Part shown: positions 4,034-44,654 of the stretch, in pieces
Layout of the letters: each line of letters opens with the position of its first letter
Position numbering within the stretch: position 1 is the first letter of the stretch
DNA from: Raoultibacter phocaeensis
GTDB lineage: Bacteria; Actinomycetota; Coriobacteriia; Coriobacteriales; Eggerthellaceae
Length of the DNA stretch: 64,000 nt
Assembly (NCBI RefSeq): GCF_901411515.1
Contig: NZ_CABDUX010000002.1
Coordinates: forward strand, 372,001 to 436,000
Direction of reading: 5' to 3'
Notes under the pieces: generated by a model
The model's database searches: none
What the model saw: the letters and a program-made list of their open reading frames with translations, nothing else
Told to the model about the DNA's origin: nothing
Program-made: the position numbers and the translations under genes

Positions 4034-4264
4034 TTATTGACCGGGCGCTTTTGGAGCACCAGGAGCGCCAGGTGCCTTGGGCGCACCAGGTGCTCCTGGT
4101 GCTTTGGGGGCTCCAGGCGCACCGGGTACGCCGGGCGCTCCCGGGGCGGCCGTTGCAGGGAGAGGTTTTCCGCAGGAGGCGCACTCGCTCGCCGAAGAAT
4201 CGTTGTCCGCTCCGCACTCGGCGCATTTCTTGTTCGTGTCAATAGTTGGTGGTCTGAAGCACAT
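4034..4264 (-). CDS. Small zinc-ribbon protein with Pro/Gly/Ala repeat tail
   Basis: A 76-residue protein beginning MCFRPP. Residues 14-31 hold two CxxC pairs (CAEC and CASC), a zinc ribbon that should bind one metal. From residue 40 the chain is a collagen-like tail in which the nine-residue unit PGAPGAPKA occurs three times in a row, encoded by a 27-base repeat. Close relatives start at 16078 (minus) and 43459 (plus), sharing MCFRP, two CxxC pairs and the GAP-rich tail. It sits downstream of, and shares a promoter element with, the MFS gene at 4609-5832. Function unknown; a metal-binding adaptor or chaperone is one guess. The ATG follows AAAGAGA. Confidence 0.8.
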   Translation of the reverse strand: MCFRPPTIDTNKKCAECGADNDSSASECASCGKPLPATAAPGAPGVPGAPGAPKAPGAPGAPKAPGAPGAPKAPGQ

Positions 4265-4513
4265 GGGATTCTCTTTTCTGCTTGCTGGTATTTGATGAGG
4301 CCTGAGAATGCGAAACATATTGGGTAAGGCCGAATTCGAATCGCATTCCGATAGAAGAAGTATAGGATTTTGGAAAAATGCTTTCCTATGGAGATTGCTC
4401 CAAAAGACTTTGAGATTTTTTGGAAACTCCTCCGATTCCCAGCTGCGCGATCTTCCTTGAGGCGATTGCGCCGGGGTTTCGCACAGCCAGAAGGCGGTTG
4501 CTTTTCGATCGCG
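4265..4513. other. Regulatory region of the zinc-ribbon gene
   Basis: No gene. It holds a minus-strand promoter (TATACT on the minus strand at 4359-4364) and an upstream dyad (4399-4424) repeated in front of the neighbouring MFS gene. The expected transcript start is near 4352, giving a leader of about 88 bases. Confidence 0.55.
4399..4424. promoter_or_regulatory. Dyad operator TCCAAAA-N12-TTTTGGA, copy 1
   Basis: A perfect 7-base inverted repeat with a 12-base spacer. It lies exactly 34 bases upstream (in the minus direction) of the -10-like TATACT at 4359-4364. Copy 2 at 6037-6062 has the same arms, spacer length and distance to its own TATACT. The position fits an activator site, since neither promoter has a good -35 box. 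Confidence 0.6.
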
Positions 4514-4552
4514 TTCGAAAAAACCCGCCCTGTTGCCAAGGCGGGTTCGAAA
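4514..4552 (-). terminator. Terminator after the minus-strand MFS gene
   Basis: AACCCGCC (4522-4529) pairs with GGCGGGTT (4540-4547), extended by flanking TTCGAA on both sides. On the minus strand it is followed by TTTTTTCG, a good U-tract. Confidence 0.85.
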
Positions 4553-4608
4553 AGCATCGTGCCGGTTTTCGATCTCATGCCGATAGGATAAAGAGCATTC
4601 CCAACCGT

Positions 4609-5832
4609 CTACTTGTTTGCGGATTCTACGGCGTATTTCCCGCAGCGCATCATGAAGACGATGGCGCAGATCACGCCGATGATGCCGACGGCGGCCAACG
4701 GAGCAGCCGTCATCGCCCAGCTGCCCGTAGCGTCGACGATGGCGCCAGCCGATGTTGCAGCTGGAATGCCGCCGAAATTCGACCCGATGGGAAGCGCTGC
4801 CATGACGAGTGCGACGCCCGCGGGGGTTTTCGCAGCCCATTGCGCGTTTTGGAACAGGCAAGGGGGAACGATGTTCGTAGCAAGACCGACTGCGGCGGCG
4901 ATAACGATCATAACGGCCGCTCCCGTGAACGTGAACATGATGGTGCCGACAGCGGCGCAGACGATCATCGCGACAACGAGTACCGCAGGGTGATTTTTGA
5001 CCTTGCTGAGAATGACGCCCATGATAAGCGATCCGATGATGCCCGTGATCGTTGTGATAGACGATACGGAATTGGCCGTTGCCATGTCCATACCGACGAG
5101 CGGCGTTTGGAGGAAGGTCGGGCTCATGGCGGACCACACGGAGAAAATGTAGGCGAAGCAGGCGAACACGATCACCAGGAGCCACGAATTAAGCGAGGTC
5201 AATCCAGCCCATGGCTTCACGTCGCCTCCAGACACCATAGCCATTTCCTCAGCATGGTCGATTCGGATGAAGAAGATGGTTACGAGAAGAGCGATAGCGT
5301 TTACGACGACGCATACCCACCAAACACCCTGCCAGCTGCCGGTTGTCTGAATGAGAAACGCGAATGAGTTGAGCATGATGAGGGAGCCGACCGCCGTCCA
5401 GCATGCCCAAATCGAGTTCGGAAGACCGCGTTTAGAAGGATCTTTGAACAAAAGGGCGATGAGCGTCGGGCCTGCGGTTGCTAAAAAGCCGTTGCCTAAG
5501 CCTCCGATGAAGCGCGAGGCGATGAACACTTCGACATTCGGAGCTAAAACGCCCATGAGAGAATCGACGAGCATGCAGATGAGCGCCGCGATGAGCATAC
5601 CCTTCGGGCCGATCTTCGTCTGAATCATGCCCGTAGCAAACGCGATAATCGTGCCAGCGACAGAGCAGGCCGACATGAACCAACCAGCTTCGCCGAGGCC
5701 GCATTGGAAGTATTCCATGAGCAGCGGCATAGCGGGTGGAACCTTGAAGAATCCGATGGCGAACACTCCGCCCATGATGAATATCAGGATGAAGTTAAGC
5801 CAAGCGTTCCCCGTCTTGCTGTTTTCTGACAT
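4609..5832 (-). CDS. MFS transporter
   Basis: A 407-residue, ~12-helix protein of the major facilitator superfamily starting MSENSKTGN. The pattern of small residues in helices 1, 4 and 5 and the short central loop (about residues 185-205) resemble CynX/NimT- and oxalate/formate-antiporter-like carriers, but the substrate is unknown. The ATG at 5830-5832 has GGGGGT immediately upstream; longer readings extend into a structured leader and are unlikely. It is divergent from molybdoenzyme module A and shares a promoter-operator pair with the downstream zinc-ribbon gene, suggesting joint induction. A terminator follows at 4514-4552. Confidence 0.88.
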   Translation of the reverse strand: MSENSKTGNAWLNFILIFIMGGVFAIGFFKVPPAMPLLMEYFQCGLGEAGWFMSACSVAGTIIAFATGMIQTKIGPKGMLIAALICMLVDSLMGVLAPNVEVFIASRFIGGLGNGFLATAGPTLIALLFKDPSKRGLPNSIWACWTAVGSLIMLNSFAFLIQTTGSWQGVWWVCVVVNAIALLVTIFFIRIDHAEEMAMVSGGDVKPWAGLTSLNSWLLVIVFACFAYIFSVWSAMSPTFLQTPLVGMDMATANSVSSITTITGIIGSLIMGVILSKVKNHPAVLVVAMIVCAAVGTIMFTFTGAAVMIVIAAAVGLATNIVPPCLFQNAQWAAKTPAGVALVMAALPIGSNFGGIPAATSAGAIVDATGSWAMTAAPLAAVGIIGVICAIVFMMRCGKYAVESANK

Positions 5833-5884
5833 CGTACCCCCTTCGTTTGTTGGATGTTCCCCTTGCGCTAGAGGTGTCTCTATC

Positions 5885-5945
5885 CCTCTGCCGCATCGTT
5901 GATGCTGAGTTGCCATTGGGCGTTCGCTCAATGATGCGGCAGAGG
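5885..5945 (-). promoter_or_regulatory. Structured 5' leader with 13-bp inverted repeat
   Basis: CCTCTGCCGCATC (5885-5897) and GATGCGGCAGAGG (5933-5945) form a perfect 13-bp stem with a 35-base loop that can itself fold (ATTGGGCG against CGCTCAAT). It lies inside the predicted ~158-base leader of the minus-strand MFS mRNA, 53-113 bases before its start codon. It has no U-tract, so it is more likely a leader structure than a plain terminator. Confidence 0.55.
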
Positions 5946-5996
5946 AAATGAACACACATGCGAGAGCGCAAGCAGTCAACGGATCGACTTCCGAAG

Positions 5997-6062
5997 AGTA
6001 TAGAAAACGAAGATTCAAGGTTTCTATGGGATTTGCTCCAAAAAAAAGAGCAGTCTTTTGGA
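5997..6062 (-). promoter_or_regulatory. Promoter and dyad operator, copy 2
   Basis: TATACT on the minus strand (5997-6002) is preceded, 34 bases further upstream, by TCCAAAA-N12-TTTTGGA at 6037-6062. The flanks resemble copy 1: both contain CTATGG, TTGCTCCAAAA and a nearby CTCCTCCGAT or TTCCTCCGTAT. The predicted transcript start is near 5990. The element lies in the 488-base divergent gap between this MFS gene and module A. Confidence 0.6.
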
Positions 6063-6243
6063 GATTCCTCCGTATCGCCGACCACAAACGGCTCCCTACA
6101 ATGAACTCGTTTAGGCGAACGGATCCATTTATCCGATTTACGGTTTTTCGTGGGTGGGAACGGCACCGTATATTCCGTTAGCGGCTTATTTCGCCGCATG
6201 CAAACAGGCTTGCGTCGCTCAATACGCATGCAGGCAAACCAAG

Positions 6244-6260
6244 AGATTCGCTTCGAATCT
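6244..6260. promoter_or_regulatory. Short inverted repeat upstream of module A
   Basis: AGATTCG (6244-6250) and CGAATCT (6254-6260) are a perfect repeat with a 3-base loop, 60 bases before the start of the module A large subunit. It could be an operator or a leader hairpin. No clear promoter boxes for module A could be assigned in 6063-6320. Confidence 0.35.
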
Positions 6261-6320
6261 GCCAGATAAGGCGGTTCAGGCGCTGAAAGATCTCAGGAGA
6301 CGAGTAAGAGAGGAAAAGGT

Positions 6321-8714
6321 ATGGAGTACAACAACGAGTACAACATGGACCTGTACCCGAAGCAGCTGCACTGGAAGGAGGGGGACCTCACGGCAACCCG
6401 CACGACCATGTGGTCGGGCCCGGGCTGCCACGAGGGGTGCCAGATCATCTTCTACACCGACGAGGACGGCAAGCTCGTCAAGACGGAGGGCGACCCGAAC
6501 AGCCCGTTCAACCAGGGCAGGCTCTGCATGCGCTGCCTCGAGCTCCCCGAGCTCGTGAACCACAAGGACCGCCTCAAGTACCCTATGAAGCGCGCGGGGA
6601 AGCGCGGCGAGGACAAGTGGGAGCGGGTGAGCTGGGACGAGGCCTACGGCATCATCGAGGAGAAGGTGCGGCAGTTCCAGGAGGAGTCCGGCCCCGAGTC
6701 CATCATCTCGATGATCGGCACCGGCAGAAACGTCTCCCAGGTCATCGCCCATAACCAGTACGCCAACTTCGGCGGCCCCGACCTCACGCTGTGCTTCCTC
6801 TCGGGCGACTCGTGCATGCTGCCGCGCACGGCGCTGTGCTACGTGGTCATGGGCAACCAGTGGGTGGCCGACATGTCGCAGTTCCGTCCCGACCGCTACG
6901 AGAACGACCCGGAGTGGAAGGTTCCCGAGTGCGTCGTGCTCTGGGGAACGAACCCGGTCGTGTGCAACTCCGACGCCTTCCTCGGCCACTGGATCGTCGA
7001 GGCCATGAAGCGCGGCAGCGAGCTCATCACCATCGACCCGCAGCTCACGTGGATGGCGGCGAAGTCCAAGTACTGGCTGCGCCTGCGCCCCGGCACCGAC
7101 GCGGCGCTCGCGCTCGGCATGATGAACGTGATCATCGGCGAGGACCTCGTCGACCGCGACTTCATCGACAAGTGGACCTACGGCTACGAGGCGCTCGCCG
7201 AGCGCGTGAAAGAGTACCCGCCCTCGAAGGTCGCCGAGATCTGCTGGATCGAGGAAGAGCTCATCGTGGAAGCCGCCCGCTTCTACGCAAACGCCCATCC
7301 CTCGACCATCCAGTGGGGCCTCGCGGTCGACATGTCCAAGATCGGCACTCCGACGGCTCATGCCATCGCTTGTCTTGCGGGCATCACGGGCAACATCGAC
7401 AACCCGGGCGGCAACATCCTCATCGACCAGGCGTGCGGTCTCGAGTTCGGGTATAATTCGGGAATAGAGTACCTAAAAGAAGGCATGGTTGAGAAGCGCC
7501 TGGGCAACTCCAAATACAACCTCAAGAAGTACGGCTTTACTGCCTCGTCTCAGTCCGACGCCATCCTCGAAGCCATCGAGACCGGCCTCGACGAGAAGGG
7601 CGACCCGCGCCCGGTGCGGATGCTCTGGATCCAATCCTCGAACCCCATCACCAACATGGGGCAGGATGCTCCGCGCATCTATCGGGCTATGGACAAGGTC
7701 GACTTCATCTGCGTGGTCGATCTGTTCAAAACTCCCTACATTGTTGCCTGCGCGGACCTCGTGCTGCCTTGTGCCATGTCCAACGAGCGCGACTGCATCC
7801 GCGTGTGGTTCGATCCGGTACGATCGCTCACCAAGTGCTCGAGCTACTACGAAGCCAAGGAAGACGAGCAGATCATGATCGATCTGGGCCACAGGCTTGC
7901 ACCGGAAAGCTGGCCCGAGTGGGTCAAGGAGCCGCGCGACTACATGAATTGGCGTCTCGAAGTGGGCAACTGCGGCTTCACCATGGAAGAGCTTGAAGAG
8001 CAAGGCGGCATGATCTACAACGACTTCCGCTACTACAAGTACGAGAAAGGTCTCCTGCGCCCCGACGGCCAGCCCGGCTTCATGACGCCGACGGGCCGCT
8101 ACGAGTTCTACATCAGCCTGTTCGACTCCTGGGGCGTCGACCCGCTGCCCTTCTACGAGGAACCGCCGACGAGCCCCGTCGCCACCCCCGAGCTCGCCGA
8201 GGAGTACCCGCTCGTGCTCACCACGGGCAAGCGCTCCTTCGAGTTCTTCCACTCCGAGTGGCGCCAGGCCGACACGACCTCGCGCGAGCTGCACCCCGTG
8301 CCCTACTTCGACATCCACCCCGACACCGCGGCCGAGTACGGCGTGGCCGAGGGCCAGTGGACCTGGATCGAGAACCAGATGGGCAAGTGCCGCCAGGTCG
8401 CGCGCTTCAACGACACGCTCGACCCGCGCGTGATCTCCACCGAGCACGGCTGGTGGTTCCCCGAGCAGGAGGCGGCCGAGCCGAGCCTGTTCGGCGTGTT
8501 CGACTGCAACCCGAACAACCTCATCCCGATGTGCGAGAACGGGCCCTCGGGCTACGGCGCGCCCATCAAGTGCGGCATGGCGAAGGTCTACCCCGCGACG
8601 CCCGAGAACATGGCACGCGAGGACCAGCCGACCTACCAGGTCACGGCTACCAACGGATACACGCACGGCCCGTCGCACAAGTCCGACGAGCCGAGCTTCT
8701 ACGACTACCGGTAA
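6321..8714 (+). CDS. Molybdopterin oxidoreductase large subunit A (catechol dehydroxylase-like)
   Basis: A 797-residue soluble enzyme of the DMSO-reductase superfamily with no Tat signal, so it acts in the cytoplasm. The N-terminus has C36-x3-C40-x28-C69-x2-C72 in place of the usual CxxCxxxCx27C. Cys165 in LSGDSCMLPR is the likely molybdenum ligand. A C-terminal MGD-binding domain runs from about residue 590. Its ferredoxin partner follows 12 bases later, then an MFS gene. Soluble molybdoenzyme, small ferredoxin and MFS transporter together are the arrangement described for one class of Eggerthellaceae catechol dehydroxylases; the substrate is unknown. Composition is uneven: the outer parts are far richer in GC than the middle (about 7441-8010). 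The ATG follows AGGAAAAGG. Confidence 0.85.
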   Translation: MEYNNEYNMDLYPKQLHWKEGDLTATRTTMWSGPGCHEGCQIIFYTDEDGKLVKTEGDPNSPFNQGRLCMRCLELPELVNHKDRLKYPMKRAGKRGEDKWERVSWDEAYGIIEEKVRQFQEESGPESIISMIGTGRNVSQVIAHNQYANFGGPDLTLCFLSGDSCMLPRTALCYVVMGNQWVADMSQFRPDRYENDPEWKVPECVVLWGTNPVVCNSDAFLGHWIVEAMKRGSELITIDPQLTWMAAKSKYWLRLRPGTDAALALGMMNVIIGEDLVDRDFIDKWTYGYEALAERVKEYPPSKVAEICWIEEELIVEAARFYANAHPSTIQWGLAVDMSKIGTPTAHAIACLAGITGNIDNPGGNILIDQACGLEFGYNSGIEYLKEGMVEKRLGNSKYNLKKYGFTASSQSDAILEAIETGLDEKGDPRPVRMLWIQSSNPITNMGQDAPRIYRAMDKVDFICVVDLFKTPYIVACADLVLPCAMSNERDCIRVWFDPVRSLTKCSSYYEAKEDEQIMIDLGHRLAPESWPEWVKEPRDYMNWRLEVGNCGFTMEELEEQGGMIYNDFRYYKYEKGLLRPDGQPGFMTPTGRYEFYISLFDSWGVDPLPFYEEPPTSPVATPELAEEYPLVLTTGKRSFEFFHSEWRQADTTSRELHPVPYFDIHPDTAAEYGVAEGQWTWIENQMGKCRQVARFNDTLDPRVISTEHGWWFPEQEAAEPSLFGVFDCNPNNLIPMCENGPSGYGAPIKCGMAKVYPATPENMAREDQPTYQVTATNGYTHGPSHKSDEPSFYDYR

Positions 8715-8726
8715 GGGGGAGAAGAG

Positions 8727-9324: not shown

Positions 9325-10596
9325 ATGGAAGAAAAACTCTATCCTTGGCGATGGGCTATCCTCGTAGGCATGACGATTCTTCTCATCAGCCTACAATTCT
9401 CGTTCATCGTTCCCGGCGGCGCAGCGATACTCGTTATGCAGGAGTACCAATGCGAGCCGATGATGTTTTCCATGATCATGTCCATTCCGTACTTCTCGGG
9501 GGTACTCTTCTGCATGGCCGGAGGCGTCCTTGCCGACCGCCTCGGCCTCGGCAAGGTGTTTGCCGTTGCTTTCGTCATCTCGCTTCTGGGGGCACTTGCC
9601 CGTTGCTTCACCATGGACTACTGGACCTTGTTCGTCTCGAGCTTCTTTATGGGAATGGGAGTCGCAGCGCTCAACGCGAACTCCGCGAAACTCTTGCGCC
9701 TATGGTTTCCCGGTACGGCTAACTCGTTTGCCATGGGGGTCTACACCGCCGGCATGTCCGGCGGTGCCGCCTTGGCTATCTGGTTCGGCTCCCGCGTGGC
9801 TGCCATCCAGGATGCGTGGTGGTTCAGCTTCGGGCTCATGGTCGTCGGCGTCATTGCATGGTTCGCGGTGTATCGCAAGCATCCCGGCGGGGAATTTCGA
9901 TCGGAGGAGCCCGTCGGCGATTATCTGCGTGTCGTGGTGAAAAACTGGCACGTTTGGGCTGTGGCCATCGTCGCGTTTTTGGTGTTCGGCATGACGAACG
10001 TCAACGGCTCGTACATGGTCGCCGCAGTCACCACGCTTATGGGCGATCCGAGTTTGACCGCCGTTGCGGGTGACATGTCTACGCTAAACACCGTCATAGC
10101 CTGCATAGCCTCGATGGCGCTGCCTGTGGTGTTCGCGAAACTGTTCAAAAACATGCGAGCGCCGTTCATCATATGCCTTGTGGGTACTGCCGTATGTTTC
10201 GCGCTCGTGTTCTTCCTTCCGTACGGACCGATCACCTGGGTGCTGTTCTGCATCCAGCCTATCCTTATGGCATCGGTCATGCCGTTTACGAAGATGCTTC
10301 CGACGCTGCTTCCCAGCGTTAAGCCTGAGCACTACGGCGTGGTCGGCGGCATTCAGGCAACGCTCCAGAACTTCGGCATGTTCCTGATCGCCTCCTACAT
10401 CATTTCGCCGATTGCCATAGCGGCTACCGGAGCGGTTGACGGTGTTCCGTACTATCAGGGAGTATACGTCGCGACGGCGGTGCTGTGCCTCATAGCCGCG
10501 TTGTCGCTCTTCCTGTTCCCGAACGTGCGCAGCTCCGTTGGCAGGAAGATAGCCGACGAGACGGCAGCCGCAAAGGCGAAGAAAGCCGAGCGCTAG
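9325..10596 (+). CDS. MFS transporter of module A
   Basis: A 423-residue, ~12-helix major facilitator protein starting MEEKLYPWRW. The loop after helix 2 (ADRLGLGKV) is a motif A variant, and the C-terminal tail is lysine/alanine-rich. It probably imports the substrate of enzyme A or exports its product. The ATG at 9325 follows AAGGGGG at 9312-9318; a reading from 9286 has no ribosome site. It is separated from the ferredoxin gene by two strong hairpins, so it may be transcribed at a different level. A terminator and a small zinc-ribbon gene follow. Confidence 0.88.
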   Translation: MEEKLYPWRWAILVGMTILLISLQFSFIVPGGAAILVMQEYQCEPMMFSMIMSIPYFSGVLFCMAGGVLADRLGLGKVFAVAFVISLLGALARCFTMDYWTLFVSSFFMGMGVAALNANSAKLLRLWFPGTANSFAMGVYTAGMSGGAALAIWFGSRVAAIQDAWWFSFGLMVVGVIAWFAVYRKHPGGEFRSEEPVGDYLRVVVKNWHVWAVAIVAFLVFGMTNVNGSYMVAAVTTLMGDPSLTAVAGDMSTLNTVIACIASMALPVVFAKLFKNMRAPFIICLVGTAVCFALVFFLPYGPITWVLFCIQPILMASVMPFTKMLPTLLPSVKPEHYGVVGGIQATLQNFGMFLIASYIISPIAIAATGAVDGVPYYQGVYVATAVLCLIAALSLFLFPNVRSSVGRKIADETAAAKAKKAER

Positions 10597-11098: not shown

Positions 11099-12820
11099 TT
11101 AGCTTTCCGCATCAGCGAATATCTTCTCGATCGATTCATGGCTGACGGTGAGGAAAAAGACTTTGAAGTCGAGCATCATGCGATCGCGCGCTGTACGCCA
11201 TGAAAGATCGAAATCGAACCGCTTCTGTATCTTCTCGATGTGGTAAAGAACGGTGTTGCGATGCATGTGCAGTCGCTGAGCCACGGCGGTTGCATTGCGG
11301 CCATAGTAGAGGTAAAACCAGAACAGCGCAAGGCAGTTGGTTCCGTTTTGCTGGTCGTCTTCGTATATCTTTTTCAGGATGGTGTGGCTGAAGCAAAACC
11401 GCATGAACCGTTCGTCTTTATCGCTCGGGTCGACAAGATAGTACATGAGCGCATCGCCGAACAGGTAGATCCCCTTGGGCATCTCCTGATCGGAGGCGAA
11501 CTGCTCGCTTGCGATGGTTTGCTTGAGGCCAAGCGCGATTTTCGTTTGCTGGAAAGCGAGGTCGAGGTTCGTGATGTCGGTGAACACCTCCGATACGCCG
11601 CTTACGATGCCGAGCGGTTCGTACATGCGTTCACGGAGTTCCTGGATGGTTTTGACGTGCGAGAGCAAGCTGTCGCTTGGGGGAGTGTGACATAAGGCGA
11701 GCGTCATGTTCTGATGCGGAAAGCAGAACACGTTTCCCTGGTTTAGGCCGCTTGCAGCCCGAATGGCAAGCGCTGCGCGATCGGGCTCCGTGTCGCCGTC
11801 GACCTCAAGTGCGATGAGCTTGTACTCAGTTGAACTATCGAGGCCTATCAGCTCCATTTGGTTGCGTACGTACTCGTCGGTTACGGAAGCATGCTCGAGC
11901 ATTTTGGTGAAGAAGAAGTAATGGGGCATGTCAAGACGCATGCGCGCTCGCCAAAGGTTTTCACAGAGGGGCATGATGCGTTTTTCCAAGATGGAAAAAA
12001 GGTCCACGAGTCCATCGGTAAGCGGCATTTCGTTGCATGACATGGATAGCGATCCGAAATACGTATGGCTTACGTGCAGCGGGCGAGAGAGACGGGCATA
12101 GGGTGTGATGTCTGAGGGTGGCTTTATGTACGATGACTTCTCGGGTAACCGCTGCCGTTTCTCTTCGATCATTTGAGGCGTCAAGCAACCGGTTCCTATT
12201 ATGCGCCGGTGAAGATCGTCGGGTGGTGCAATCAGGGTTGTTCGGGCAATGATGTTGAAGCTGCTATCGGATATGAACATGAAGTTCTTGATGACCGTTG
12301 TGCTGGCATCGAGCATTTCGGTTAAGGTGCCGTGGCGGGCGACGATGCGATCCAGCTCGTTTTGCCAGATGAGCAGTTGGGTGAAATACGATTGCATTTT
12401 GAAGATGAAATAAGCGAACCGACTCGTTTGCCGGATGACGACCATGCGATCGCACTGCAATTCGGGAACGTTTTTGCCTTCTGCTCGCATCAGTTCCTCG
12501 TTGCAAGCATCGGCTGCTTCGTTTTTGCTCGCGAGCACGAGTGCGAAAGCGGTGGGTTTTTCGCGCAGGAGCGCCTCGACTTCATCTTCGCTGCATACAA
12601 ACAGAAGGTGGGCATCTGCAATGCTTGAGGGGGCTGCGCAATCCACGCTTTCTCGAGATACTGCGGCGAACCACTGGAAGGTTCTGCGTGGCAGCGTATT
12701 CGGCTGATAGAGGATTTCGGATTGGGAAAGGAAATCCATGAGCATATTCATGGTAACCGAAGGGAGATTCGCTCCCGTTGCAGGCGAAAAGTCTATATCA
12801 CGTTCGTTGTGATCTGTCAC
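11099..12820 (-). CDS. PucR/CdaR-type transcriptional regulator
   Basis: A 573-residue soluble protein. The C-terminal ~70 residues contain a helix-turn-helix of the PucR family, with the signature NATAVAQRLHMHRNTVLYHI, followed by an R-x-M-L-D-F-KVFF segment. The long N-terminal part (about 1-480) has no clear domain to my eye and should hold ligand sensing. Members of this family activate catabolic operons in response to a metabolite. It lies just downstream of, and on the same strand as, the module B operon, behind that operon's terminator, so it is the natural candidate regulator of module B. GTG at 12820 follows GGGGGTT; a later ATG (MNMLMDF) is possible. Confidence 0.82.
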   Translation of the reverse strand: MTDHNERDIDFSPATGANLPSVTMNMLMDFLSQSEILYQPNTLPRRTFQWFAAVSRESVDCAAPSSIADAHLLFVCSEDEVEALLREKPTAFALVLASKNEAADACNEELMRAEGKNVPELQCDRMVVIRQTSRFAYFIFKMQSYFTQLLIWQNELDRIVARHGTLTEMLDASTTVIKNFMFISDSSFNIIARTTLIAPPDDLHRRIIGTGCLTPQMIEEKRQRLPEKSSYIKPPSDITPYARLSRPLHVSHTYFGSLSMSCNEMPLTDGLVDLFSILEKRIMPLCENLWRARMRLDMPHYFFFTKMLEHASVTDEYVRNQMELIGLDSSTEYKLIALEVDGDTEPDRAALAIRAASGLNQGNVFCFPHQNMTLALCHTPPSDSLLSHVKTIQELRERMYEPLGIVSGVSEVFTDITNLDLAFQQTKIALGLKQTIASEQFASDQEMPKGIYLFGDALMYYLVDPSDKDERFMRFCFSHTILKKIYEDDQQNGTNCLALFWFYLYYGRNATAVAQRLHMHRNTVLYHIEKIQKRFDFDLSWRTARDRMMLDFKVFFLTVSHESIEKIFADAES

Positions 12821-21849: not shown

Positions 21850-22059
21850 ATGACAAAAGACGAATTCCTTGCGCTCTCGGAAGAAGCCCAGATCGCATGG
21901 TTGACCGAACAGACCGATGCTGGGCGCGAGGTGGCCGACATCTGCGAGGAAATGGGCTGTACGCGAGCCGATCTCCAAGGGTTCGGCTATACGTGGGCTT
22001 TGGGGCAATGGCGCTATCTTTCGATGAAAGACCGCGCATCGGTTGTTGCCCAAAACTGA
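21850..22059 (+). CDS. Small helical protein, possible helix-turn-helix
   Basis: A 69-residue, probably all-helical protein. The stretch EVADICEEMGCTRADLQGFGY has the spacing of a helix-turn-helix, but it is too short and weak to assert DNA binding. I do not recognise a family. The ATG follows AAAGGAA. It sits between module C and the leader of module D, bracketed by two hairpins (21793-21827 and 22074-22103), so it may be expressed separately. Another small helical protein accompanies module F at 43230. Confidence 0.65.
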   Translation: MTKDEFLALSEEAQIAWLTEQTDAGREVADICEEMGCTRADLQGFGYTWALGQWRYLSMKDRASVVAQN

Positions 22060-32066: not shown

Positions 32067-33617
32067 ATGATTACGAAAGCAGATGATGTGAGGCTCACCG
32101 TGCAGCCCATCTTCCTTGAAATGGAGCATCTGTACAAATACGAGGGGCCGTGTCGGGTTGGGAGGGGCGAGGCGCTCGAACCGGGATTCGATGCTATTAG
32201 AAATGCCGAATGGTACAAGCGATTCCAGAAAAAGCTTGCCGACAACATCCCAGACGATATAGCCGAGGTCAAAGACATTCTCCGCATCAAACGGACTGAC
32301 AACTGGGACCAGGAAGAAGAGTGGTGGACCCGCATAGCAGCCACAACTGCAGATACCGATTTCTATATTGTCCATTCGTTTCTCGGGCTTGATGACATCG
32401 CCGTTGAGTTCGGTGAGCGATTCAAAAAGCCGTTCAGCTTAGAGCCTGAATACGAGAACCCTTGCTCGACTACTTCAGTTGGCGCCGCACTGAACGCTCG
32501 CGATCGCGGATACGAATTCTACGGGTTCAGAACGTGGGATGAGCTTGTGCGGCAGCTCCGTATCCTGCGTGCACGCAAAGTCGTGAGGACATCTCGGATC
32601 CTCATGGCGCCGCGCAACGGGGCAGCGTTGTCGTTTAGCGGCGTTGATGGAGCCTACGATGTCGAGGAGCTCACTCATAATCTCGGGTGCCGTTTCCGCT
32701 ACATGAGCATACACGAGCTGCTTGACCAGACGTCTCCGGCTAAGCCTGCTGGCAATCATACGACGCCCGGTCGCGATACCTGGGACATCACCGATGAGGA
32801 TGCAGCCGAAATCGAGGCCGTGGCAGACGATCTTATCGCGCGCGCCGACGAGGTAGAGGTTGATCGCGAATATGTGATTAATTCTCTGAAATTCTTCAAA
32901 ACGATGCGTAAACATATGGATCGTCTCGACTGCAACGGGTTTACGGCACCATGCCCCGATAGCTGCTCAACACGCCGCTTGAATGAAGAGAAATTTACAT
33001 TCTGCCTTGCGCATTCCCTCAATATGAGGGAGGGGTTGCCCTCGGCGTGCGAATACGATGCATGTTCGGTTATCACCCAGCAAGCGCTCGTCGCCGTATC
33101 AGGGCAGCGGTGCTTCATGGGTAACACGATGCCGGTTGTGAAGGAGTCTGACGGCAGGTGGGCTACCTTCGGACTCGGCGGCATCGAGGACGAGGATATG
33201 CCGTTGCTCGACGAACACGAGGGGCATCTTTACATGATGGTGCACTCTGTCCCTAATCCGCGCATGAATGACCCCGAAAAAGATGCTCCCTACTCGCTTC
33301 GTCACTTTGCCGAAGAGCAGGGTTTTGGAGCGGTGTACCGTTACGATTTCAACCGTGACAAAGGTACGATCATCACCGTGGCGCGTTTTTCGCCCAACGG
33401 GAGCAAGCTCTTAGTTGCGAAAGGAACGATCGTTTGCGGAAACGGATTCCATCAGCATAGCTGCAACACTGCCATCGTGTTTTCCGTCGCCGATCAAAAC
33501 GATTTGTTCCAAAAGCAGATGCTGGTGGGCAATCATCTCGCCACCGTGTATGGCGACTACACGCGAGAAATGGAAGCGCTCGGCAAGGCGCTTGGTGTCG
33601 AGGTTATAACGTCATAG
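32067..33617 (+). CDS. Fucose/arabinose isomerase-like protein of unknown substrate
   Basis: A 516-residue soluble protein. The C-terminal half holds GLPSACEYDACSVITQQAL and then RCFMGN, which resembles the metal-binding GLP-x-xCE-x-D-x-x-x-x-x-T region and the following strand of L-fucose/L-arabinose isomerase-fold proteins. Cysteines are unusually frequent near residue 295 (CPDSC). A ketol isomerase fold beside a transhydroxylase is unexpected; it could isomerise a polyhydroxylated ring product or cosubstrate, which is inference. The ATG at 32067 follows AAAGGGGA, 90 bases after the small subunit. A hairpin at 33629-33657 follows. Confidence 0.65.
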   Translation: MITKADDVRLTVQPIFLEMEHLYKYEGPCRVGRGEALEPGFDAIRNAEWYKRFQKKLADNIPDDIAEVKDILRIKRTDNWDQEEEWWTRIAATTADTDFYIVHSFLGLDDIAVEFGERFKKPFSLEPEYENPCSTTSVGAALNARDRGYEFYGFRTWDELVRQLRILRARKVVRTSRILMAPRNGAALSFSGVDGAYDVEELTHNLGCRFRYMSIHELLDQTSPAKPAGNHTTPGRDTWDITDEDAAEIEAVADDLIARADEVEVDREYVINSLKFFKTMRKHMDRLDCNGFTAPCPDSCSTRRLNEEKFTFCLAHSLNMREGLPSACEYDACSVITQQALVAVSGQRCFMGNTMPVVKESDGRWATFGLGGIEDEDMPLLDEHEGHLYMMVHSVPNPRMNDPEKDAPYSLRHFAEEQGFGAVYRYDFNRDKGTIITVARFSPNGSKLLVAKGTIVCGNGFHQHSCNTAIVFSVADQNDLFQKQMLVGNHLATVYGDYTREMEALGKALGVEVITS

Positions 33618-33628
33618 TAGGTTTGGTG

Positions 33629-33657
33629 GCGGGCGGGCAGCCATGATGTCCGCCCGC
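33629..33657 (+). terminator. Hairpin between isomerase-like and SufS-partner genes
   Basis: GCGGGCGGGCA (33629-33639) pairs with TGTCCGCCCGC (33647-33657), one G-U pair, loop of 7. It is followed by AGTTATTTG, a weak U-tract, and by the next ribosome site at 33669. Confidence 0.55.
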
Positions 33658-33678
33658 AGTTATTTGCAGGAGGCCGAC

Positions 33679-34092
33679 ATGGGAGACGATGCGTCGAACC
33701 GCATCAAGGAGCGAATCGAGGCGTTGTATGAAAAATCGTTTGCGTATCTCGATTCGATCAAGAGTCAAGCGGGTGACGAGGAAGCTGTCCGTGCTCATTT
33801 GAAATCATTTGTGCTACACCGCTTCTTTCTTGTTGACGAGGATCCGGCCTCGGATGATATCGCGACGTTGGCGACGATGAGCACCGAAAAGCTTTTGAGA
33901 ATAGACAGGAAAAACGCGCTAGGCGACATGCCGAACAATTGCGCAGGTACGAGTTCTGAGACGTTGAAAAAAGCCCTTTTGATCATGACCTTGCACAAAC
34001 AGCTCGGAGTTCGGTTTGATCCACTCGAAAACGATACGATAGCGCAGCTGTCTCGCTCAATCGTGCAGCAGCTCGGCGGCGACCATGGGTAA
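33679..34092 (+). CDS. Small helical protein coupled to a cysteine desulfurase
   Basis: A 137-residue, probably all-helical protein I do not recognise. It has a single cysteine, Cys88, in a loop-like stretch (GDMPNNCAGTSS). The last 45 residues (TLHKQLGVRF and onward) vaguely recall acyl-carrier-like helices. Its stop overlaps the start of the SufS-like gene by 8 bases, so the two are made together. No SufE, SufU or IscU is encoded nearby; a lone cysteine in a partner of a desulfurase suggests a sulfur acceptor, but this is inference. The ATG at 33679 follows GGAGG. Confidence 0.65.
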   Translation: MGDDASNRIKERIEALYEKSFAYLDSIKSQAGDEEAVRAHLKSFVLHRFFLVDEDPASDDIATLATMSTEKLLRIDRKNALGDMPNNCAGTSSETLKKALLIMTLHKQLGVRFDPLENDTIAQLSRSIVQQLGGDHG

Positions 34093-35326
34093 GTTCGAGT
34101 TCGATATAGCGCGCGTGCGTTCAGACTTTCCTATTCTTGATCGTAAGGTGAACCGATGCCCTTTGGTGTATCTCGACAATGCGGCAACGACGCATGTGCC
34201 CGATCAGGTTCTTGCAGTAATCGCGAACCACTACCACACGCACAACGCCAACGTGCATCGTGGTGCCCATACACTGAGCCTAGAGGCGACCGGGTATTTT
34301 GAAAAGGCACGTGAGCGAGTTGCGGAGTTTGTCGGAGCGAACCGTAAAAGCGAAGTAGTCTTTACGCGGGGGACAACGGATTCGATCAATCTTGTAGCGC
34401 AGTCATGGGGTGCGGCGAACCGCAAAAGCGGAGTTGCCGTAACTGCGATGGAGCACCACTCCAACTTCATACCGTGGCAGCAGCTCTGCCGGGCTCGCAG
34501 GAAAAAACTCGGAGTCGTTCCGTTGGATTCCAGCGGAGATCTTGACCTCGATGCGCTTGAGGTGATGCTGCGGAAGGACGACATAGGCTTGGTAGCGGTA
34601 ACACAGGTCTCGAACGTGCTCGGTACGGTAAATCCCCTTCGTGACATCGTCGAGCTGGCCCATCGATTCGGCGCGCTCGTGCTCATTGACGCCGCGCAGG
34701 CGGTTCGACACGAAGCTATACAGGCACACGAGCTCGAGTGCGATTTTCTCTGCTTTTCGGGCCACAAGATGATGGGTCCTACGGGTATCGGCGTTCTGTA
34801 CGGGAAAGCGTCGCTTCTCGAGAAGATACCGCCGTTCGCCTTCGGGGGCGAGATGGCTGATCGGGTTGATGCGATAAGGAGCACGTTTCAGCCTGCGCCG
34901 CTCAAATTCGAGGCAGGTACGCCTAACTATGTGGGAGCGATCGGCCTAGCGGCAAGCATCGACTACCTGAAAGGAGTGGGACTATCGGCAATCCGTTTGC
35001 GCGAGCAGGAGCTTTTACGCTATGCGGAAAAGCGGATACGGTCGATAAGCGAGGTAAGGGTGCTGGGAAGCCCGAAGAGGCGGGCGGGATGTTTGTCGTT
35101 TGCAGTTGAAGGTCGAAACCCGTTCGATGTTGCCGCTATGCTCGATGCGCAGGGCATCGCCGTCAGATCGGGGAGTATGTGCGCCCAGCCTCTTGTAAAG
35201 AATCTCGACGTTGCGCAGGTTGTGAGAATCTCACCTGCTTTCTACAACACGTTCGAGGAGCTGGATGCATGCATTGCGGCTCTCGAGGAGACGGTCGCGA
35301 TGCTTCCGCCGGCGCTGCAGGGGTGA
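34085..35326 (+). CDS. SufS-like cysteine desulfurase
   Basis: A 413-residue PLP enzyme of the class V aminotransferase family. YLDNAATTH near residue 30, EHHSNFIPW, SGHKMMGPTGIG (Schiff-base lysine) and RSGSMCAQP (catalytic cysteine loop) are all present, as in group II desulfurases such as SufS. It takes sulfur from cysteine for Fe-S clusters or for sulfuration of molybdenum cofactor. No other suf gene (B, C, D, U) is in the window, so this copy is probably dedicated to the transhydroxylase module. It overlaps the preceding small gene by 8 bases and is followed by a zinc-ribbon gene 17 bases on. Confidence 0.88.
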   Translation: MGKFEFDIARVRSDFPILDRKVNRCPLVYLDNAATTHVPDQVLAVIANHYHTHNANVHRGAHTLSLEATGYFEKARERVAEFVGANRKSEVVFTRGTTDSINLVAQSWGAANRKSGVAVTAMEHHSNFIPWQQLCRARRKKLGVVPLDSSGDLDLDALEVMLRKDDIGLVAVTQVSNVLGTVNPLRDIVELAHRFGALVLIDAAQAVRHEAIQAHELECDFLCFSGHKMMGPTGIGVLYGKASLLEKIPPFAFGGEMADRVDAIRSTFQPAPLKFEAGTPNYVGAIGLAASIDYLKGVGLSAIRLREQELLRYAEKRIRSISEVRVLGSPKRRAGCLSFAVEGRNPFDVAAMLDAQGIAVRSGSMCAQPLVKNLDVAQVVRISPAFYNTFEELDACIAALEETVAMLPPALQG

Positions 35327-40560: not shown

Positions 40561-40919
40561 TCCGCAGATGATGGTTCGCTGGGTGTAAATATTCTTAATC
40601 AAGGATATTACACCTAGTCATATGGTGTTTTTCTCGGGCAAAACTAGGCATATCGATCCGTTTGGGCATGGAAAAGGATCGCTTCGGCCTCGATACTGAT
40701 TCCAACGATTCGCGCAGGCTCCGGGTGTGCTTGCGCGAACGTCCTCGGATCATGAAACGGGGTTGAGGGAATTGTCTGCATCGGTATCCGTTTGCCCGTC
40801 GAATTCCTATCCGCTTCGTTTTTGCAGAGCTTCGAAATTCTATCGCTTGTGACGTGCGCAGGCCGAATCGGCATGCGAGGTGCGCAGAGTATGCGCGCAA
40901 GACGAGAGAAAGGGGCAGC
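40561..40919. other. Intergenic region before module F
   Basis: No credible gene. GGTGTAA (40582-40588) and TTACACC (40608-40614) form an inverted repeat, with ATATTC/GGATAT nearly pairing inside; it could be a terminator for the surface-protein gene or an operator. The rest shows nothing I can assign, and no clear promoter for module F. Confidence 0.4.
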
Positions 40920-43145
40920 ATGACGGATACGATTGAGGTAAAGCGAGCCGGATGCTTCTTCTGCCACGTGCGCTGCGGCGTGCTCGTGACGAAGAAGAAC
41001 GGCAGGATCGTCGACATCGAAGGCGATCCGGATTGTCCGCACAACAAGGGGTACGTGTGCTCGAGGCTCGAGAAAGGGCGCTACCTCGAGGGGTTCGTGT
41101 ACAACCCCAACCGTTTGAAGCGCCCGCTCAAGCGCAAAGGGGAACGCGGCGGCGGCGAGTGGGAGGAAATCACGTGGGACCAGGCATTCGACGAAATTGC
41201 CGATAAGCTTGCAAAGCTGCGCGACGAGTACGGTGCCGAAACACTCGCGTTCACCGAGGGCACGGCACGCACCTGGAGCTGGCTGCACTACAAGTTCACG
41301 AACCTGTTCGGCACCCCTAACACCGGAGGCAACGGAACCATCTGCTACTCGAGCGACATGTGGCTCGAGCCCTGCACCTACGGAGGATTTTGCTCTGACA
41401 AGGCCGACTGGGTGAACGCCGACCTTGTGGTTCTGTGGGGCCGCAACACCATCGCATCCGAGCCGCTTTTATGGCATTGGGTCGATACGAACCGCAAGGA
41501 ACGCGGTGCGAAGCTGCTTGTCATCGACCCGCGTTTCAGCGAGGTGGCCCAAAAGGCCGATCTGTTCTTGCAGCTGCGCCCCGGCACCGATGCAGCGCTC
41601 GCGCTCGGCTTCATTAACGTCATCATCGAAGAGGACCTCTACGACCACGAGTTCGTGGATGAGTGGTGCATCGGTTTCGACGAGCTCAAAGAGCGCGCTG
41701 CCGAGTATCCGCCCGAGAAGGTCGCCGAGATCACGTGGGTAAGCGCCGATAAGATCAGGGAAGCCGCCCGCATGTACGCTACTACGAAGCCCGCGTGCCT
41801 GCCGTGGGGCCAGAAGGGCGGCGATGCGAGCGGTATCAACGCTTCAAGCGCCATACAGGCCAAAGCGATCCTGCGCGCCATCACGGGCAATCTCGACAAG
41901 AAGGGCGGCGATCAGCTGGCCCCGCCGTCGCGCTTCCCCCCGGCGTTCTACGAGCACTACGCGCTTTCGCAGGAGCAGCGCGACAAGATGATCGGCAACG
42001 ATCGGTTCCCCGGTCTCACGTTCAAGGGATGGGACGTCATCTCGCAGGCCTATCCGTCGTTCTACCCGTACAGCAACGCGCCGCTTCTGTTCCGCGCGAT
42101 GCGCGACGGCGACCCTTATCCGGTCAAGGCCCTCATCGTGCAGGCCGACAATCCGGTCATGGCGTTTTCGAACACGAAGCTCGTGGTCGACGCGCTCATG
42201 AACCTCGAGCTTCTGGTCGTGCACGACTACTTCCTCACGCCGACGGCGGCTCTTGCCGATTACGCGCTGCCTGCGGCCACGTGGCTTGAGCGTCCGGACA
42301 ACTGCTATGCCGTCATGAACCATCGGCCGATGTACTTCGGAGCGCAGGCGCGGGTGATCGAACGGTTCGAGGGCGGTACCGACGTCGATTTCCGCGACGA
42401 TTACGAGTTCTTCTACGGCTTGGCCGTCCGCCTCGGGCAAGAGGACAAGTGGTGGGGCCCGAAGGCCGAAGACATGCTCGATTTCCAGCTGGCTCCCATG
42501 GGCATGACGCACGAGAAGTTCTACAACGAGGTCAAGTACATGGCCGGGCAGAAGAAGTTCGAGAAGTACAAAGAGCCGGGGTTCAAATTCCTCACACCCA
42601 CCGGCAAAGTCGAACTGCGCTCGACGGTAGTCGAGAAGCTCGCCGAGGAAACGGGGATACCGTTCGACCCGCTGCCGCATTTCGAATACCCGGGTTTGAG
42701 CGTGGAAAAGCATCCCGAATGGAAAGACGAATATCCTCTCATCATGATAACCGGTGCGAGGTTCATGCCGTTTTACCACTCCGAACACCGGCAACCCGGC
42801 CCTTACCGCGACCTGCATCCCGATCCGATCTTCGACATCCATCCCGACACGGCGATCGATTTGGATATCCGAGACGGCGACTGGTGCTGGATCGAGACGC
42901 ACAAGGGACGCATTAAGCAGCGCGCCCGCAAGACGTCCATCGTCGATCCGCGCGTCATCAGCGTGCAGCATGATTGGTGGTTCCCCGAGAAAGAAGAGGC
43001 GCTGCCGAGTTTGTTCGGAGCGTTCGAGTCGAACGTGAACGTGCTTTTGGACGACGATCCCGAAACCCTCGACCAGCTCATCGGCGCATGGCAGCAAACC
43101 GGCGTTGCGGTGAAGGTGTACAAGTGCGAGGAGGAAGAAGCGTAG
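40920..43145 (+). CDS. Molybdopterin oxidoreductase F, acetylene-hydratase branch
   Basis: A 741-residue soluble enzyme with the canonical cluster motif C12-x2-C15-x3-C19-x27-C47. Cys142 (GTICYSS) is the likely molybdenum ligand, and the protein ends in KVYKC followed by an acidic tail. Overall layout and many segments (LERP, FLTPTGKVELRS) resemble Pelobacter acetylene hydratase. However, the catalytic Asp of that enzyme, just after its second cluster cysteine, is His16 here, so acetylene hydration is unlikely. It has no ferredoxin partner gene, unlike A to E. A DUF4332-like gene, a zinc-ribbon gene and a TetR regulator follow. The ATG follows AAAGGGG. Confidence 0.82.
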   Translation: MTDTIEVKRAGCFFCHVRCGVLVTKKNGRIVDIEGDPDCPHNKGYVCSRLEKGRYLEGFVYNPNRLKRPLKRKGERGGGEWEEITWDQAFDEIADKLAKLRDEYGAETLAFTEGTARTWSWLHYKFTNLFGTPNTGGNGTICYSSDMWLEPCTYGGFCSDKADWVNADLVVLWGRNTIASEPLLWHWVDTNRKERGAKLLVIDPRFSEVAQKADLFLQLRPGTDAALALGFINVIIEEDLYDHEFVDEWCIGFDELKERAAEYPPEKVAEITWVSADKIREAARMYATTKPACLPWGQKGGDASGINASSAIQAKAILRAITGNLDKKGGDQLAPPSRFPPAFYEHYALSQEQRDKMIGNDRFPGLTFKGWDVISQAYPSFYPYSNAPLLFRAMRDGDPYPVKALIVQADNPVMAFSNTKLVVDALMNLELLVVHDYFLTPTAALADYALPAATWLERPDNCYAVMNHRPMYFGAQARVIERFEGGTDVDFRDDYEFFYGLAVRLGQEDKWWGPKAEDMLDFQLAPMGMTHEKFYNEVKYMAGQKKFEKYKEPGFKFLTPTGKVELRSTVVEKLAEETGIPFDPLPHFEYPGLSVEKHPEWKDEYPLIMITGARFMPFYHSEHRQPGPYRDLHPDPIFDIHPDTAIDLDIRDGDWCWIETHKGRIKQRARKTSIVDPRVISVQHDWWFPEKEEALPSLFGAFESNVNVLLDDDPETLDQLIGAWQQTGVAVKVYKCEEEEA

Positions 43146-43172
43146 GCGAACGGAACCGATCGATCTTATGCA

Positions 43173-43201
43173 GGTTCGCTCGGCCGAGTGCCGGGCGAAC
43201 C
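43173..43201 (+). terminator. Hairpin after the module F enzyme gene
   Basis: GGTTCGC (43173-43179) pairs with GCGAACC (43195-43201); the loop contains the palindrome CTCGGCCGAG. No U-tract. It lies before the next ribosome site (GGAAAGGAG, 43215-43223). Confidence 0.45.
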
Positions 43202-43229
43202 CTCGCGTCAAAGAGGAAAGGAGCATGCC

Positions 43230-43448
43230 ATGGCAACGGATCTGTCCCAGCTGTTCGGAATCGATCCCGATGCGGCCGAGGCCATCAAGGCGCTCGGCAT
43301 CGAGACGATCGAAGCCTTCTACGAAGTGGCCAAGCACCCCGATTCGAGAAACGAGCTTTCCGAGCAGATCGGCGTCGATGCCTTCAAGCTCGAAGAGTGG
43401 TCGTCGACGGCGGGAAACTTTATTTTGATGTCGAATTGCGAATGGTGA
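43230..43448 (+). CDS. Small helix-hairpin-helix protein, DUF4332-like
   Basis: A 72-residue helical protein. Residues about 10-60 (DPDAAEAIKALGIETIEAF, then LSEQIGVDAFKLEEW) have the double helix-hairpin-helix rhythm of DUF4332 domains, which resemble DNA-binding folds but have no settled role. The ATG at 43230 follows GGAAAGGAG. It sits between enzyme F and a zinc-ribbon gene, 10 bases before the latter, so the three are probably one transcript. It may aid assembly of the enzyme; that is a guess. Confidence 0.65.
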   Translation: MATDLSQLFGIDPDAAEAIKALGIETIEAFYEVAKHPDSRNELSEQIGVDAFKLEEWSSTAGNFILMSNCEW

Positions 43449-43458
43449 GGTGATCGTC

Positions 43459-43674
43459 ATGTGTTTCAGGCCTCCGAGCGCAGAGGCGGGCGAGATCGTG
43501 TGCCCGAACTGCTTCATCGTGGCCGAGCCCGATGCGCAGGGCCGCTGCCCTGAGTGCGGCGAGCCGATGAGGCCGGCGGGAAGCGCGCCCGCACCTGCCG
43601 CACCGACGCCACCCGGTGCGCCAGCGCCACCGAGCGCGCCTGGTGCCCCCGAAGCGCCAAAACCGCCGCACTAG
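43459..43674 (+). CDS. Small zinc-ribbon protein with Pro/Ala-rich tail
   Basis: A 71-residue protein beginning MCFRPP, with CPNC and CPEC (about residues 15-36) forming a zinc ribbon. From residue 45 the tail is rich in PAP, PGAP and SAP triplets. It is the third member of the MCFRP group, with a less regular repeat than those at 4034 and 15824. The ATG follows GAGGTGAT; a GTG three codons upstream is less well placed. A GC hairpin at 43685-43715 follows. Confidence 0.8.
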   Translation: MCFRPPSAEAGEIVCPNCFIVAEPDAQGRCPECGEPMRPAGSAPAPAAPTPPGAPAPPSAPGAPEAPKPPH

Positions 43675-43684
43675 ATTCATCCCT

Positions 43685-43715
43685 GCGGGCTTCCGCGTCG
43701 CGTGCGGGAGCCCGC
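43685..43715 (+). terminator. GC-rich hairpin before the TetR gene
   Basis: GCGGGCTTCCGC (43685-43696) pairs with GCGGGAGCCCGC (43704-43715), one G-U pair, loop of 7. No U-tract. Confidence 0.55.
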
Positions 43716-43777
43716 CCGATCTGGACAAGCGAAAGAACCCGTGCCATGATGGGAAAAAGCGATCGGGGGTTGACCGC

Positions 43778-44473
43778 ATGAGGGGAAGCGATTCCAAGCT
43801 GAGCTTCGCCGAGTCGTTCATCGACTTGGCCGAAACGATGCCCATAGACAAGATAACGGTGAACATGATCGTCGAGCGCATCGGCAAGCACCGCAAGACG
43901 TTCTACTACCATTTCTCCGACAAAGACGATCTCATGAGATGGCTCTTTCGATTCGATCTCGCCAGGGGGCTGGAAAGCGAGTTCGGCTCAGCGCAGCTGG
44001 TGTACGAGGATGAGGGAGGATCGTATCCGGAGTTTCCGTTCTACGTGAGAAACGTGCTCGGCAACGGACGGCTCTACAACGCGTTGTTCTTCGAGGCCTT
44101 CGCGCGCTCGCTCGAGAGCAGAAGGGCGTACTACCGGGCAGTCTTCTCGGTCCGCGGTCTCGGTTCGATGGAAAACTACCTGTACGATCTGTATTGCCCT
44201 GAGCTGAAAAAGGACATCGTCCATTTGATCGAGGTCGGTCTCGCCGACAAGCCGGCGCTGCTCCAGGCGGAGTGTCGCGAGCAGCTTGCCCAGGGGGAGG
44301 GTATCGATTTTCTTGCCGGGTTCTACACGGGGGCGTTCATCCAGCGGTTCGTCAAGCGCCTTATCGACGATCCGTCCCGCAGGACCATCGACGACATCAG
44401 GCCCTACGAGAACGTGATCCACGATTCGCTGTGGCTGCTCATCGGGGCGGGGGCGCAGAGCCGTTGCCGCTAG
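43778..44473 (+). CDS. TetR/AcrR-family regulator
   Basis: A 231-residue regulator. The N-terminal ~50 residues hold the TetR helix-turn-helix (ITVNMIVERIGKHRKTFYYHFSDKDDL). The remainder is helical and should bind a ligand and form a dimer. Families of this kind usually repress a neighbouring operon until a small molecule binds; module F just upstream is the obvious target. The ATG at 43778 follows GGGGGT. Its last 35 bases overlap the end of the convergent zinc-ribbon gene. Confidence 0.87.
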   Translation: MRGSDSKLSFAESFIDLAETMPIDKITVNMIVERIGKHRKTFYYHFSDKDDLMRWLFRFDLARGLESEFGSAQLVYEDEGGSYPEFPFYVRNVLGNGRLYNALFFEAFARSLESRRAYYRAVFSVRGLGSMENYLYDLYCPELKKDIVHLIEVGLADKPALLQAECREQLAQGEGIDFLAGFYTGAFIQRFVKRLIDDPSRRTIDDIRPYENVIHDSLWLLIGAGAQSRCR

Positions 44474-44654
44474 CTTCGCCGTGCTCGCCCTTCGTCTCAG
44501 GCGGATTCGGCGGCGATCCCCCGATAAAGGTGTGGCATGCTGGGCAGCAGAGGGCATCGGGCGGAAGGGGGCTTTTGCATTCGGGGCAGGAAAGGGGCCT
44601 CTCGTCGCGGCCCGTGTCGAAGCAGGCGCCGCACATCACGCAGGGTATGCACAT
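44439..44654 (-). CDS. Small triple-CxxC zinc-ribbon protein
   Basis: A 71-residue protein with CIPCVMCGAC in the first 11 residues, then CPEC and CPAC. It ends in a Pro/Gly/Ser-rich tail. It belongs with the group at 10697 and 35344, although GCGRCRGE is reduced to MCGACFD. It is the only one of the six that runs against its neighbour; its 3' end overlaps the TetR gene by 35 bases, so transcripts of the two could interfere. The ATG follows AAAGGAGC on the minus strand. Confidence 0.68.
   Translation of the reverse strand: MCIPCVMCGACFDTGRDERPLSCPECKSPLPPDALCCPACHTFIGGSPPNPPETKGEHGEASGNGSAPPPR

Follow-up and report, generated by a model that had tools for sequence, protein, structure and literature searches.

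Why do genes for very small cysteine-rich proteins recur among the molybdoenzyme modules of Raoultibacter phocaeensis? The stretch analyzed here, called the window, comprises 64,000 nucleotides of the 3.86 Mb genome (contig C2, NZ_CABDUX010000002.1, positions 372,001 to 436,000), and a sequence-only reading of it had pointed to six such genes, starting at 4034, 10697, 15824, 35344, 43459 and 44439. All six open reading frames (ORFs) were present, each with an in-frame ATG and a stop codon, and the neighbors claimed for them (a molybdoenzyme, a linked major facilitator superfamily (MFS) gene or a module regulator) were borne out gene by gene (Table 1). We found that the six belong to one large family of very small zinc-ribbon proteins (hereafter ribbons) that appears not to have been described. 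The ribbon genes are real ORFs that are linked to soluble molybdoenzymes, are absent beside exported ones, and are kept across genera and in a second phylum.

The six proteins were divided into two types. Type A (4034, 15824 and 43459) starts with MCFRP and ends in Pro/Gly/Ala repeats, as had been noticed from the sequence; the MCFRP start is invariant, in between lies a C-x2-C-x10/11-C-x2-C ribbon, the tail is composed of Pro/Ala/Gly/Lys, and the cysteines are two CxxC pairs plus Cys2. Type B (10697, 35344 and 44439) contains an N-terminal cysteine cluster (CHYCMNCGRC and variants, a CxxCxxCxxC-like arrangement) followed by a ribbon with two CxxC pairs like that of type A; the GCGRCRGE string ascribed to this group is common to 10697 and 35344 and only echoed in 44439 (MCIPCVMCGACFDTGRDE). 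Across 18 pairs of type A orthologues, the ratio of nonsynonymous to synonymous differences (pN/pS) was 0.03-0.25 over the first 45 alignment columns, which cover the MCFRP-ribbon part; the type A genes are thus constrained protein-coding genes under purifying selection.

Profile searches of the R. phocaeensis genome revealed about 21-22 type A and 11-13 type B genes, and an unbiased scan for small Cys-rich ORFs added about five more, including a third head type (MCFGGCRVTCDTCKP), for a total of about 35-40. The same genome contains 91 PF00384 matches, corresponding to about 86 molybdoenzyme genes of the dimethyl sulfoxide (DMSO) reductase family. The feared match of the six to a well-known unrelated family did not appear: none of the Pfam and NCBIfam models reached its cut-off, and the closest were generic zinc ribbons, the best of which scored 24.8 bits against a cut-off of 25 (PF13240), with the others lower relative to their cut-offs. 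Some family members weakly match a rubrerythrin-like model. None of the papers searched describes the family or mentions zinc ribbons together with Eggerthella lenta or Gordonibacter, and the single paper that names zinc ribbons along with molybdoenzymes concerns nitrification in Alcaligenes.

Proximity to molybdoenzymes was scored as a distance of up to 5 kb to a PF00384 domain and compared with a rotation null that preserves the clustering of hits; the relatives compared include Gordonibacter sp. Marseille-P2775 and Adlercreutzia faecimuris JBNU-10. In R. phocaeensis, 20/21 type A genes lay within this distance (null mean 4.7), as did 19/20 in Gordonibacter (null mean 4.2). The corresponding type B counts were 9/11 and 13/14, and in Adlercreutzia 25/28 ribbons were this close to a PF00384 domain. 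Additionally, 20 of the 21 R. phocaeensis type A genes have the same orientation as the molybdoenzyme nearest to them. The sequence-only reading had proposed enrichment near soluble molybdoenzymes in other genomes as a test, and the Gordonibacter and Adlercreutzia counts were far above chance.

The linkage is confined to one class of enzymes. Molybdoenzyme genes with a twin-arginine translocation (Tat) motif, or with TorD or NrfD nearby, were classed as exported, and the remaining ones as soluble. A ribbon was present within 5 kb of none of the 30 exported enzymes of R. phocaeensis versus 32/56 soluble ones (p = 1.3e-8); this proportion of about 57%, together with modules that carry A and B in tandem, contradicts the earlier idea of one ribbon per module. 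A cross-table for the same genome showed no ribbon at the 16 NrfD-linked enzymes. Similarly, a ribbon was found near 0/20 TorD-linked enzymes versus 29/62 others in Gordonibacter (p 4e-5) and near 0/10 versus 22/49 in Adlercreutzia (p 0.009). Among 90 ribbon-enzyme pairs from the sampled genomes, only one partner had a Tat motif, and there a soluble enzyme lay on the other side of the ribbon. A search with PF02613 agreed with the earlier remark that the window lacks a TorD-like gene, as all 20 TorD genes of the genome lie outside it. Upon regression on genus means from 138 Eggerthellaceae genomes in 48 genera, the type A count changed by +0.37 per molybdoenzyme and -0.61 per TorD gene (R2 0.85), with molybdoenzyme numbers taken from first-look counts, genera not fully independent, and weak generic ribbon hits adding noise of one to three per genome.

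The arrangement is also kept over larger distances. For the genome-collection scan, a closer subset of the type A alignment was used as the query. In an Anaerolineales metagenome-assembled genome (MAG) of the Chloroflexota (G521), each of the three MCFRP genes sits right next to a molybdoenzyme module, two of them in the order enzyme, iron-sulfur (FeS) subunit, MCFRP gene. The third lies beside a 739-aa enzyme that is 69% identical to the 741-aa enzyme of the window, with a DUF4332 gene on its other side. Of the five MCFRP genes in a Coriobacteriia MAG (G522), four are near a molybdoenzyme. The window cluster at 40920-44654 (741-aa enzyme, DUF4332 gene, MCFRPP ribbon, TetR-like gene and MCIPC ribbon) is kept whole or in large part in Gordonibacter avicola, Adlercreutzia and a goat-rectum MAG, and the pairing of the 15824 ribbon with its molybdoenzyme is retained in the sister species and in G. 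avicola. In a phylum sample of 396 genomes, full-length matches from MCFRP on were confined to Eggerthellaceae, and matches outside this family begin at position 3 or later, like generic zinc ribbons; the Chloroflexota case may therefore reflect horizontal transfer or a binning error. Two Dactylosporangium matches were rejected, as they cover only residues 25-71 without MCFRP.

Ribbon subtypes and enzyme subfamilies correspond. Where the ribbon loop has 13-14 residues, the partner enzyme carried a [PA]PGxHPxG motif in 13/18 cases versus 7/72 for other ribbons (p 2.6e-7, which is optimistic because orthologues were counted separately), and the loop-11 AEAGE subtype was paired with the 741-aa enzyme in 8/8 cases. 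In the alignments the CxxC pairs are invariant, and the C4 spacing fits a zinc-ribbon knuckle. AlphaFold gave a small-domain model in which only the ribbon core was confident (predicted local distance difference test score of about 80-89), with low values for the head and the tail. Profile matches among solved structures were mainly zinc-ribbon proteins (eL40, bL32, a RanBP2-type finger and RadD), and a Foldseek search with the type B model found nothing significant, which is not surprising for a domain of this size. The type A tails consist of 30% P, 27% A, 14% G and 6% K and carry an average net charge of +1.9; a KAP-like motif is found near the end of 85/94 proteins.

As the favored explanation, with a probability of about 0.45, we propose that the ribbons are partner-specific maturation or assembly adaptors for soluble, TorD-less Mo/W enzymes of the bis-molybdopterin guanine dinucleotide (bis-MGD) type. 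We infer that they bind zinc, contact the enzyme and act in its maturation, with a part for the tail. In this model the ribbon would be a rigid C4 zinc knuckle, and docking on the cognate catalytic apo-subunit would involve both its loop and the MCFRP head, which would begin with Cys if the initial Met is cleaved off. The disordered Pro/Ala/Gly/Lys tail could recruit or tether a further component, for instance the FeS subunit, a sulfur donor or the machinery that inserts the cofactor. For cytoplasmic enzymes, the ribbons would take the place that TorD/DmsD hold for exported ones. In a broader version, which we put forward somewhat more tentatively, system-specific maturation of cytoplasmic bis-MGD Mo/W enzymes would rely on a hitherto unrecognized class of factors distinct from TorD, built of a zinc ribbon, an invariant MCFRP head and a polyproline-type tail. 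This class would have grown to tens of paralogues in Eggerthellaceae as the soluble reductases and dehydroxylases multiplied, and Chloroflexota would share it.

Several points weigh against maturation adaptors. About 43% of the soluble enzymes of R. phocaeensis have no ribbon within 5 kb, although factors acting in trans are possible. The fifth MCFRP gene of the Coriobacteriia MAG (L198) has a citrate-synthase-like gene and a transporter as neighbors, and the 13.5 kb examined there contain no molybdoenzyme. Within one genome, the correlation of ribbon and enzyme distances is weak (Mantel test, r 0.14, p 0.10). Gordonibacter Cldh showed activity upon expression in E. lenta (PMC11887054), which speaks against strict essentiality of the ribbon, unless one was present there. 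In a split flavin-reductase-like protein, an MCFRP ribbon forms the N-terminus of the second half (540-550 aa) in three genomes (R. phocaeensis, the sister species and one further genus), and the first half of 165-172 aa, seen in R. phocaeensis and in G132, carries a Tat-type signal and an FAD-binding start. A ribbon joined to another redox enzyme favors a docking or assembly role over one strictly tied to molybdenum, and the role need not be linked to molybdenum. Finally, the lack of TorD coincides with a lack of NrfD, so the pattern alone fits both maturation and electron delivery.

The ribbons are distributed as expected of soluble-type counterparts to the accessory factors of exported enzymes, and a scaffold subunit or an electron carrier would show the same distribution. 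As a scaffold, the ribbon would be a permanent small subunit or a tether that keeps the soluble enzyme together with its FeS subunit and perhaps with the transporter, the P/A/G/K tail acting as linker; this agrees with the module linkage, the subtype matching and the long low-complexity tail with its frequent KAP-like motifs, and the ribbon on the flavin reductase half could be an assembly domain. Some soluble enzymes lack a ribbon, however, and A and B frequently occur together in one module, where a single subunit would not need both; we therefore regard a scaffold as unlikely. More doubtful is an electron carrier, that is, a rubredoxin-like iron protein (type A) or an Fe-S protein (type B) feeding soluble enzymes, which lack the quinol-oxidizing NrfD. 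The absence of ribbons from NrfD-linked enzymes, the weak rubrerythrin-like matches of some members and the CxxCxxCxxC head of type B would agree with such a carrier, but a W/Y is present in the core of just 14/94 type A proteins, the top profile matches in the PDB are zinc ribbons (eL40, bL32 and RanBP-type fingers), and most of the soluble enzymes of the ribbon-bearing class already come with their own FeS subunit.

Zinc ribbons often bind nucleic acid or protein, and LuxR, PucR or TetR regulators are near many modules, which would suit a small regulatory protein that responds to metal or redox state and acts on the regulator or the transcription of its module. We consider this improbable, as ribbon subtype goes with enzyme subfamily, and the MAG loci hold enzyme and ribbon together while regulator types differ among modules. 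The view that these are ordinary small genes sitting in molybdoenzyme-rich islands gains something from the clustering of soluble modules, notably at C2:256-416 kb. It is nevertheless very improbable: about 20 ribbons are encoded elsewhere in the genome, almost all of them no more than 5 kb from a molybdoenzyme, and the shared strand of type A genes and the subtype matching also speak against it. The gene order kept across genera and in a second phylum already disfavors coincidence.

We compared the ribbons with known systems. Like TorD/DmsD/NarJ (PF02613), they are encoded beside DMSO-reductase-family molybdoenzymes and appear specific to them, and they occupy the complementary enzyme set; they were never found near TorD-linked enzymes in R. 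phocaeensis, Gordonibacter or Adlercreutzia. They are of 63-84 aa, while the PF02613 model has 136 positions, and PF02613 was absent among the Pfam matches of the six proteins even at E up to 1; homology to TorD was rejected on these profiles. Generic zinc ribbons (PF13240, PF13248, PF12773 DZR; eL40/bL32/RanBP-type fingers) share the C-x2-C...C-x2-C knuckle and give the best sequence matches, but all below Pfam cut-offs, and the MCFRP head, the tail and the genomic setting are foreign to them. Rubredoxin-like iron proteins also have two CxxC pairs, whereas the ribbons mostly lack the core W/Y, and their profile matches in the PDB are mostly to zinc-ribbon proteins. The DadhD-H accessory proteins are module-specific molybdoenzyme helpers from the same bacterial family, with DadhE lacking annotation, but they serve Tat-exported enzymes (PMC11887054).

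Exported Eggerthella-type dehydroxylases have Tat signals and membrane partners, and soluble Gordonibacter-type dehydroxylases come with a small 4Fe-4S protein and an MFS transporter (PMC7028382). The activity of exported Dadh requires accessory proteins specific to its gene cluster, among them a TorD-like chaperone; soluble molybdoenzymes of the Gordonibacter type remove hydroxyl groups from catechols of dietary and host origin, and such enzymes are hard to express in standard hosts (PMC11887054). Should the ribbons prove to be accessory factors, the cognate ribbon may be a missing ingredient for producing soluble dehydroxylases, and ribbon subtype would help to group dozens of orphan reductases. 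The maturation role, if true, suggests what replaces TorD for the cytoplasmic members of the family. The mutual exclusion of ribbon and TorD gives a concrete rule that can be checked, and Gordonibacter urolithinfaciens, which belongs to the right genus, is already genetically tractable (PMC11887054).

The features are listed in Table 1, including the molybdoenzyme operon that, as claimed earlier, is opened by a ribbon gene (15824).

Table 1. Ribbon genes and associated features of the window, followed by the split flavin-reductase-like gene of other loci
Feature	Position	Strand	Remarks
Type A ribbon (MCFRP...), 76 aa	4034..4264	-	flanked by two co-oriented MFS genes; divergent from molybdoenzyme 6321
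Soluble molybdoenzyme catalytic subunit, 797 aa, no Tat motif	6321..8714	+	PF04879, PF00384, PF01568
Short 4Fe-4S subunit, 115 aa	8727..9074	+	Fer4 models, sub-threshold; sequence cluster 0
MFS transporter of module	9325..10596	+	PF07690
Type B ribbon (MGSCHYCMNCGRCRGE...), 69 aa	10697..10906	+	100 bases past MFS gene; closes molybdoenzyme-FeS-MFS run
PucR-type regulator, separating two modules	11099..12751	-	PF13556
Short 4Fe-4S subunit, 120 aa	13007..13369	-	sequence clustering
Soluble molybdoenzyme, 793 aa	13344..15725	-	PF00384 search
Type A ribbon, 84 aa	15824..16078	-	first gene of operon, ahead of molybdoenzyme (98 bases) and FeS subunit
Soluble molybdoenzyme, 861 aa	28406..30991	+	PF00384 search
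Long 4Fe-4S subunit, 324 aa	31003..31977	+	sequence clustering
Class V aminotransferase (cysteine-desulfurase-like)	34085..35326	+	PF00266
Type B ribbon (MCGYLCTGCGRCRGE...), 63 aa	35344..35535	+	17 bases past aminotransferase; ends run begun by molybdoenzyme
Soluble molybdoenzyme, 741 aa (RAGCFFCHVRCGV)	40920..43145	+	domain profiles; no adjoining FeS subunit
DUF4332 protein, 72 aa	43230..43448	+	profile match; stays with 741-aa enzyme across genera and Chloroflexota MAG
Type A ribbon, loop-11 AEAGE subtype, 71 aa	43459..43674	+	follows molybdoenzyme and DUF4332 gene
TetR-like regulator	43616..44473	+	sequence, conserved place; true start downstream of ribbon's stop
Type B ribbon (MCIPCVMCGAC...), 71 aa	44439..44654	-	conserved member of 40920-44654 cluster
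Split flavin-reductase-like gene	L090 = C1:1771854-1774037; L128:1103-2755; L130:1545-3686

Some further observations were made around these modules. The 72-aa DUF4332 protein is kept beside the 741-aa-type enzyme and a ribbon from Eggerthellaceae to the Chloroflexota MAG (L197:1655-1876), where there is no adjoining FeS subunit. The region 32100-35326, which separates a molybdoenzyme-FeS pair from a type B ribbon, codes for a protein of 505 aa that matches nothing in Pfam, an unknown protein of 137 aa and the class V aminotransferase; together they may be a sulfur-handling submodule. In Gordonibacter sp. Marseille-P2775, at L155:300-3061, just upstream of a molybdoenzyme-ribbon cluster, HAPTRGAT/FNPRAHEGRD-like peptides are repeated in all ORFs, which suggests a clustered regularly interspaced short palindromic repeat (CRISPR) array. 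Two PF00384 matches of R. phocaeensis (C2:153321-154598 and C2:914623-916329) contain one in-frame TGA each and are perhaps selenocysteine enzymes of the formate dehydrogenase kind. Lastly, a family of proteins of about 70-90 aa without a Pfam match (MTKDEFLALSEEAQIAWLTEQ...) is represented at 21850-22059 of the window and at C2:1674085, and five of its members lie near molybdoenzyme FeS genes in the R. phocaeensis genome.

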